Assembly (NCBI GenBank): GCA_944325245.1
Contig: CALUZM010000019.1
Coordinates: 1-32,921 of the forward strand
Reading direction: 5' to 3'
DNA length: 32,921 bases
Source of the DNA: an uncultured Massilimicrobiota sp.
GTDB lineage: Bacteria; Bacillota_I; Bacilli_A; Erysipelotrichales; Coprobacillaceae
The first letter of the stretch is position 1. Each line of letters opens with the position of its first letter. The notes under the pieces are model-generated. The model had not been told where the DNA came from. It did no database searches and worked only from the letters and a program-made list of their open reading frames with translations. The position numbers and the translations under genes are program-made. Of this stretch, positions 31,187 to 32,803 are shown in pieces.

Positions 31187-31215
31187 ATTATGCTACAAAG
31201 CGTTATCTTTGTCAA
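31187..31215 (-). promoter_or_regulatory. Promoter of the glnN nitrogen operon
   Basis: On the minus strand TTGACA (31210-31215), a 17-bp spacer and CATAAT (31187-31192) give a good vegetative promoter about 50 nt upstream of the glnN start. No sigma-54 -24/-12 motif is seen. Confidence 0.8.
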
Positions 31216-31253
31216 TGATTTTTTATCATTTCAATAAATTATTATTACACCTA

Positions 31254-31282
31254 TTGAAAAATATTCATCTTTTCGATATAAT
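31254..31282 (+). promoter_or_regulatory. Promoter of purF
   Basis: TTGAAA (31254-31259), a 17-bp spacer and TATAAT (31277-31282). Transcription should begin near 31289, right at the first base of the long leader stem. Confidence 0.85.
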
Positions 31283-31288
31283 AAACGC

Positions 31289-31379
31289 GAATAGGAGATA
31301 TTGAATCCTAAAAATATCAATATTTGTTTAACATCTTATACAGATTTCAATATATGATATCCATCTCCTATTCTTTTTT
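31289..31379 (+). promoter_or_regulatory. Structured purF leader with terminator, candidate riboswitch or attenuator
   Basis: GAATAGGAGAT (31289-31299) is perfectly complementary to ATCTCCTATTC (31363-31373), which is followed by TTTTTT: an intrinsic terminator whose 5' arm is the very start of the transcript. The 63 nt enclosed have further pairing. The ATATTGA next to the 5' arm can pair with TCAATAT at 31317-31323, or with the second copy at 31347-31353, so two alternative folds exist. I find no purine-riboswitch, T-box or PyrR-type consensus. A leader controlling purF by early termination is the likely role; the ligand or protein is unknown. Confidence 0.6.
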
Positions 31380-31399
31380 ATAATTTAAGGAGAATAAAA

Positions 31400-32803
31400 A
31401 TGACTGATGATTTAAAAGAAATTCATGAAGAGTGTGGTGTTTTTGGTGTCTTTCAGCATCAGAATGCTGCTAATCTCTGTTATTATGGTTTACATGCCCT
31501 TCAGCATCGTGGACAAGAAGGCGCTGGTATTTTAGTTGCGAATGATCATAAACTTTCTATTCATAAAGGAGAAGGATTGGTCACAGAAGTTTTTAATAAT
31601 AAAAAATTGAATCAGATGAATGGTATTCACGCTATTGGTCATGTGCGCTATTCAACTGCTGGTGGTGGTGGTATTATGAATGTACAGCCATTGCTTTTTA
31701 GAACCATGGCAGGTGACATGGGAATTTGTCATAATGGAAATATTGTGAATGCTAATGTATTAAAAGCTGAACTTGAAGAACATGGCAGTATTTTTTCATC
31801 TTCATCTGATACTGAAATCTTAGGACATTTAATCAAACGTCAAAAAGGACATATGATAGATCGTATCTGTGCTTCTTTAGAAAAATTAGATGGAGCTTTT
31901 GCTTTTTTGATTCTTTTAGAAGATCGTCTCTATGCAGTGAGAGATCGTTATGGATTAAGACCCTTAGCGATTGGACAGCTTCCTAATGGAGCGTATGTCT
32001 TTGCCTCAGAAACATGTGCATTAGACATTGTTGGTGCTAAATTTCTAAGAGATGTCGAACCAGGTGAAATTGTCAGAGTCAAAGATAACCAATTGCTATC
32101 TCGTCTTTATACAAAACAGCCTATACATGATAAGATCTGTGCTATGGAATATGTTTATTTTTCTCGCCCTGATAGCATTCTTGATGGCATTAATGTTCAT
32201 ACGACGCGTAAAAATGCTGGAAAGCAGCTCTTTTTGGAAAGTCCTGTTGATGCTGATATCGTCATTGGTGTTCCAGATTCATCTATATCTGCGGCTATTG
32301 GATATTCAGAAGCTTCTCATATTCCTTATGAAATGGGACTGATTAAAAACAAATATGTTGGAAGAACATTTATCCAGCCAACACAAGAATTAAGAAATCA
32401 GGGAGTACGTATGAAACTTTCTGCTGTTTCTTCCATTGTTAATCAAAAAAGAGTCATCATGATTGACGACTCTATTGTGCGAGGAACAACATCCAAACGT
32501 ATTGTGTCCCTATTAAAAGAAGCAGGAGCTACAGAAGTTCATGTCAGAATTGCTTCTCCTGCAATCAAATATCCTTGTTTCTATGGTGTAGACACATCTA
32601 CTCTTGATGAATTGATTTCTCACAAGATGACAACACAGGAACTTTGCACTTATATTGGTGCGGATTCCTTAGCTTTCATCAGTGAAGAAGGACTTCAAAA
32701 ATCTATTCATTTTAAAAAAGAACATACCTGTGATTTATGTATGGCATGTTTCAACAGAAAATATGTCACACCACTCTATGATAATGAATTTCAGGACGAT
32801 TAA
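31400..32803 (+). CDS. purF: Amidophosphoribosyltransferase (glutamine PRPP amidotransferase)
   Basis: A 467-residue PurF, catalysing the first committed step of purine synthesis: PRPP plus glutamine to phosphoribosylamine. It starts with an 11-residue propeptide (MTDDLKEIHEE) before the nucleophile C12 (CGVFG), as in the Bacillus enzyme. Cysteines near 246, 392, 443 and 446 (KICAMEY, PCFYG, CDLC) match the 4Fe-4S ligands of the oxygen-sensitive Bacillus type. The PRPP loop is VIMIDDSIVRGTTS (351-364). The ribosome site AAGGAG is 7 bp before the ATG. A terminator follows, so it is apparently monocistronic rather than part of a long pur operon. It is divergent from glnN, the source of its glutamine. 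Confidence 0.97.
   Translation: MTDDLKEIHEECGVFGVFQHQNAANLCYYGLHALQHRGQEGAGILVANDHKLSIHKGEGLVTEVFNNKKLNQMNGIHAIGHVRYSTAGGGGIMNVQPLLFRTMAGDMGICHNGNIVNANVLKAELEEHGSIFSSSSDTEILGHLIKRQKGHMIDRICASLEKLDGAFAFLILLEDRLYAVRDRYGLRPLAIGQLPNGAYVFASETCALDIVGAKFLRDVEPGEIVRVKDNQLLSRLYTKQPIHDKICAMEYVYFSRPDSILDGINVHTTRKNAGKQLFLESPVDADIVIGVPDSSISAAIGYSEASHIPYEMGLIKNKYVGRTFIQPTQELRNQGVRMKLSAVSSIVNQKRVIMIDDSIVRGTTSKRIVSLLKEAGATEVHVRIASPAIKYPCFYGVDTSTLDELISHKMTTQELCTYIGADSLAFISEEGLQKSIHFKKEHTCDLCMACFNRKYVTPLYDNEFQDD

Follow-up and report, generated by a model that had tools for sequence, protein, structure and literature searches.

A conserved leader of purF in the genus Massilimicrobiota is a candidate cis-regulatory RNA

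PurF is the enzyme of the first committed step in purine synthesis. In the genus Massilimicrobiota, represented here by the genome of an uncultured species (the source genome), the purF gene is split off from the other pathway genes, adjoins genes of nitrogen assimilation and has a conserved leader of its own. Unless another contig is named, positions refer to the window, i.e. the whole stretch of 32,921 nucleotides that was analysed. The leader is real, conserved, uncatalogued and specific to purF in one genus, and it is very probably a functional cis-regulatory RNA. Our preferred reading, held tentatively, is a genus-specific, cis-acting element of ~110 nt that, according to the models, would control purF most likely at translation, through an anti-SD/anti-anti-SD switch. 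We would list it as a candidate rather than as a riboswitch.

The purF locus and the control of the other purine genes

The purF protein (Table 1) is 93-97% identical within the genus and ~60% identical to proteins from Bacillus and Exiguobacterium. The gene stands alone and is divergent from glnN-asnB-gltB-gltD-amt, so the opposite strand carries this nitrogen cluster, followed by carAB. From a reading of the proteins, the cluster encodes a 700-aa type III-like glutamine synthetase, an asparagine-synthase-like protein, the glutamate synthase subunits and an ammonium transporter. Massilimicrobiota sp. An134 and M. timonensis are among the nearest relatives of the source genome in the set compared. 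A second PurF-like protein (470 aa, 32% identical) is encoded at L002 1501-2913 (G000 C85), next to a TtcA-like gene, and relatives have copies too.

Between the glutamine synthetase gene and purF, the intergenic DNA at 31187-31255 (with TTTGTCAATGATTTTTTATCATTTTAATAAATTATTATTA and GCATTATGCTACA nearby) shows strong conservation within the genus and is for the most part retained in sister genera (L091, L092). A promoter on the minus strand, TTGACA-17-CATAAT, lies in it together with a small inverted repeat, and the stretch probably serves the regulation of the nitrogen cluster.

According to the same kind of reading, contig 66 carries fhs-purE-purC-purM-purN-purH-purD, and these genes follow a ZMP/ZTP riboswitch (RF01750, L170 4789-4867, 50.4 bits). 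As the rest of the pathway is under this riboswitch, purF has separate control. A ZMP/ZTP riboswitch lies ~5.1 kb upstream of purH in the source genome, and likewise in three of the other four species of the genus. With strict filters, ZMP/ZTP riboswitches were found in 41 of 43 family genomes, the exceptions being CHKCI006 (G013) and G006. A search of the fhs-purE-C-M-N-H-D operon with the covariance model of the purF leader (R1, see below) found no motif shared with the leader.

The first-pass annotation had seen no match to a known purine control element in the leader, and this is supported. A search of 31240-31420 against Rfam gave no match at the gathering score and none credible at E<=10; the matches at that level (snoRNAs, rli60, etc.) were rejected as chance. 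Even at E<=10 the purF leader matches neither the ZMP/ZTP riboswitch (RF01750, gathering score 39 bits) nor the purine riboswitch (RF00167, 37 bits), and none of the ykkC-type models (PRPP/ppGpp/guanidine) matches it up to E = 10. The annotation had also seen no guanine riboswitch at purF, correctly so: the only RF00167 match of the source genome lies elsewhere (L142 1501-1601, G000 C2:53423-53523, 73 bits). Downstream of this single copy are two genes for permeases of a polyamine-type ABC transporter and no obvious purine gene; three more species of the genus also have RF00167. Nor was Bacillus-type PurR (PF09182) found in the source genome, in line with the annotation, which had seen no PurR boxes; one marginal match above the cut-off was obtained, in G004 only. 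No description of the purF leader was found in the literature searched.

Structure, conservation and distribution of the leader

Table 1. Features of the purF locus, in window positions.
Feature	Position	Strand	Remarks
purF promoter, TTGAAA-17 bp-TATAAT	31254-31282	+	sigma-A-type; 11 of 12 consensus positions
Box A, GAATAGGAGATATTGAATCC	31289-31308	+	predicted transcript 5' end; 20/20 nt invariant in five species; has SD-like AGGAGA
P1 5' arm, GAATAGGAGAT	31289-31299	+	part of box A; pairs with box C
P2 5' strand, TATTGAA	31299-31305	+	pairs with 31346-31352; RNAalifold consensus
First TCAATAT copy	31317-31323	+	source genome
Box B, AACATCTTATACA	31330-31342	+	invariant in 4/5 species; single A->T in G004
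P2 3' strand, TTCAATA	31346-31352	+	RNAalifold consensus
Box C, ATCTCCTATTC	31363-31373	+	P1 3' arm; 11/11 nt invariant in five species; TCTCCT complementary to Shine-Dalgarno AGGAGA of purF
T6 tract after box C	31374-31379	+	source genome; weaker or absent in four others
purF Shine-Dalgarno region, AAGGAGA	31387-31393	+	AAGGAGAA invariant in five species
purF	31400-32803	+	ORF, 467 aa

The predicted +1 of the purF promoter is 31289, 6 nt past TATAAT, and coincides with the first base of the 5' arm of helix P1. Both the 11-bp helix and a transcript start on its 5' arm had been proposed from the source sequence. The promoter spacing agrees with such a start, and the helix is confirmed: the two arms are perfectly complementary and enclose a loop of 63 nt, with 4 G-C pairs among the 11. 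The gap of 6 nt between TATAAT and box A is constant in all five Massilimicrobiota species. When the 117-nt leader is shuffled with its dinucleotides preserved, 1.2% of the shuffles contain a perfect inverted repeat of at least 11 bp. Folding of 31283-31399 gives z = -2.34 (3 of 200 shuffles equally stable), whereas for 31289-31410 z is only -0.79, and folding energy alone is therefore weak evidence.

The strong evidence for the element is its genus-wide conservation. The leader precedes purF in all five Massilimicrobiota species examined, which include An134, M. timonensis and two further species, G001 and G004. It has three conserved blocks (boxes A, B and C), whose spacers vary in both sequence and length; the span that begins with box A and ends with box C measures 76 to 85 bp. 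The core blocks GAATAGGAGATATTGAATCC, ACATCTTATACA and ATCTCCTATTC are invariant in all five. In the same genomes only 47 of the 165 four-fold-degenerate columns of purF (28.5%) are invariant, which argues that the blocks are under selection. The comparison with unconstrained sites is what counts here, since invariant runs of 20-32 nt also occur within the coding sequence of purF and run length alone is not proof.

The RNAalifold consensus contains P1 (A:C, 10 pairs), P2 with a bulge of variable size on its 3' side, and a small hairpin that box B may form with the less conserved bases directly 5' of it; the pairing of this hairpin is kept in 82% of cells, which is poor. In An134, P2 is kept despite two one-sided, wobble-compatible changes (G-U/U-G), and its outermost pair is lost in two species. 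The first-pass annotation had looked to conservation or covariation of the helix in relatives. P1 is indeed intact and unvarying in all five species, but covariation cannot discriminate: no compensatory (double) changes in P1 or P2 are seen among the five related sequences, and P1, being invariant, neither covaries nor breaks. From the alignment, P1 is thus conserved but not proven by covariation. Two copies of TCAATAT (31317 and 31347) had been noted against one ATATTGA (31298), and this arrangement is present in the source genome. A switch by competition of the two copies is not supported by the comparison, the upstream copy being private to the source genome and absent in the four other species.

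A covariance model (R1) built from the five leaders finds the leader only in those five genomes, one copy per genome, and a DNA search found no second copy in the source genome. Chance-level matches aside, R1 found no leader in 38 other genomes of the family, in 310 other genomes of the order (315 in total) or in the rest of a 392-genome sample of the phylum; the broad searches were run under strict filters that diverged relatives could escape. The R1 matches outside the leader were rejected: the best (G026, E = 0.004) falls within coding sequence and the others have E of at least 0.087. Additional matches to the box B pattern in the genus were rejected too, as they lie within or at the ends of unrelated genes. 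The box A pattern, with one mismatch allowed, has somewhat more matches than its reversed control in every genome, and exact box A was not found in viral contigs. A distribution across Erysipelotrichia, where the annotation had proposed to search, is not supported; in the genomes covered the element is confined to one genus. It is therefore recent or fast-evolving, and the five related species are all that it is known from to date.

In sister genera the purF leaders are short; those of G025 and Longibaculum muris are short too and do not contain the element. In CHKCI006 (L092 about 1390-1430) the purF leader has another hairpin, of 8 bp and unrelated in appearance. It runs GAAAGAGA...TCTCTTTC, then TTTTC, and lies soon past the -10 box. 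R1 gives no convincing recognition of this hairpin (best overlap 11.0 bits, E 4.6), and there is nothing unusual in how it folds (z -1.0). It may represent an attenuator of independent origin or a relative that has diverged.

Proposed control of purF and its alternatives

By calculation, the leader has two mutually exclusive pairings, in which box C has alternative SD-like partners: box A, located at the 5' end of the transcript, and the purF Shine-Dalgarno. We infer that this switch operates in cells and acts on translation. With box A paired to box C, the Shine-Dalgarno would be exposed and PurF would be made; with box A held elsewhere, box C would cover the Shine-Dalgarno and PurF would not be made. 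The signal, a metabolite or a protein, may bind the AATCC end of box A together with box B (ACATCTTATACA), a likely site because the invariance there is not explained by pairing. The first candidates for the signal are a purine nucleotide, PRPP and glutamine, the last because purF adjoins the genes of glutamine synthetase, glutamate synthase and the ammonium transporter. We regard it as doubtful that the leader represents a new riboswitch class of narrow distribution that is dedicated to purF and senses one of these three through SD-mimic exchange beside the ZTP riboswitch.

When A:C is enforced, the probability that the Shine-Dalgarno is open is 0.10 in the source genome, 0.20 in An134, 0.72 in M. 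timonensis, 0.88 in G001 and 0.48 in G004; when box A is made unavailable, it is modelled at no more than 0.0003 in all five species. The C:SD pairing reaches about 10 bp in M. timonensis and G001, where it is also the fold of lowest predicted energy. In the source genome, An134 and G004, A:C is favoured over C:SD by about 5-6 kcal/mol, and a strong signal would therefore be needed to switch. The C:SD complementarity comprises 6 contiguous nt, and as shuffled versions of box C match equally well in 11-18% of trials, it is not significant alone and could be coincidence plus a purine-rich box A.

The first-pass annotation had named an attenuator as one possibility; in a transcription attenuator A:C and the following U tract would form a signal-dependent intrinsic terminator. 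In the source genome T6 does follow box C directly, and A:C dominates the predicted ensemble (P 0.996). The four relatives, however, have interrupted or short tracts (TTCTATAA, TTTTATGA, TTTATGAA and, in G004, CTTAATAT), and this lack of conservation argues against termination as the shared mechanism. The low number of G-C pairs and the long loop of the helix also speak against a terminator, and a pattern scan, which permits loops of 3-8 nt only, scored no terminator-like site. What stands of the U-tailed terminator is the tail in the source genome, and we consider attenuation rather unlikely. The helix might instead be a 5'-terminal stem-loop that buries the 5' end and stabilises the purF mRNA, with no switch. 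This would agree with a predicted +1 that falls, in each of the five species, precisely on the first base of the helix, and with A:C being favoured in three of them, but it leaves the invariance of box B and of AATCC, both outside the helix, unaccounted for. The helix bases, moreover, never vary, though covariation would be tolerated, and such a role seems distinctly unlikely.

Box B is likewise left unaccounted for if boxes A and C serve a regulator as a pair of inverted sites on the DNA, with the RNA helix as a by-product. The half sites of 11-13 bp are invariant and inverted, and the nearby intergenic DNA is conserved too; the varying span from box A through box C, however, gives no fixed helical phase, and exact GAATAGGAGATAT is found outside the leader at one place only (G002 C62) among the five genomes. 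We judge a DNA operator very unlikely. Highly improbable is control by a leader peptide or the ribosome, where AGGAGA-TA-TTG of box A would start a short ORF whose translation disrupts A:C. All five species do have a TTG ORF that begins with L(M)-N-P-K/V, but its SD-to-TTG spacing is only about 3 nt, its length ranges from 6 to 24 codons and indels break the frame. A conserved leader peptide was rejected, as no peptide is conserved across the five species.

Comparison with known systems

If the leader is a switch, control of the entry step would be separated from control of the remaining steps and perhaps coupled to nitrogen status. The leader would also add a narrowly distributed candidate of the kind that cross-phylum covariation searches tend to miss.

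The PRPP riboswitch (ykkC 2b) controls purine genes in Bacillota (PMC5912903), a setting that the purF leader shares, although it has no match to the ykkC-type models. Purine-gene control in Bacillota is also the point of likeness with the purine (guanine) riboswitch, whose copy in this genome is located elsewhere and not at purF. The ZMP/ZTP riboswitch is, like the purF leader, a leader of the purine pathway, and the two occur in the same genome, but the corresponding model does not match the purF leader. Compared with translational anti-SD/anti-anti-SD riboswitches, the purF leader has no recognised aptamer and its pairing with the Shine-Dalgarno is short in three of the five species; what it has in common with them is a CUCC-bearing strand with two alternative predicted partners, a GGAG-like strand upstream and the Shine-Dalgarno.
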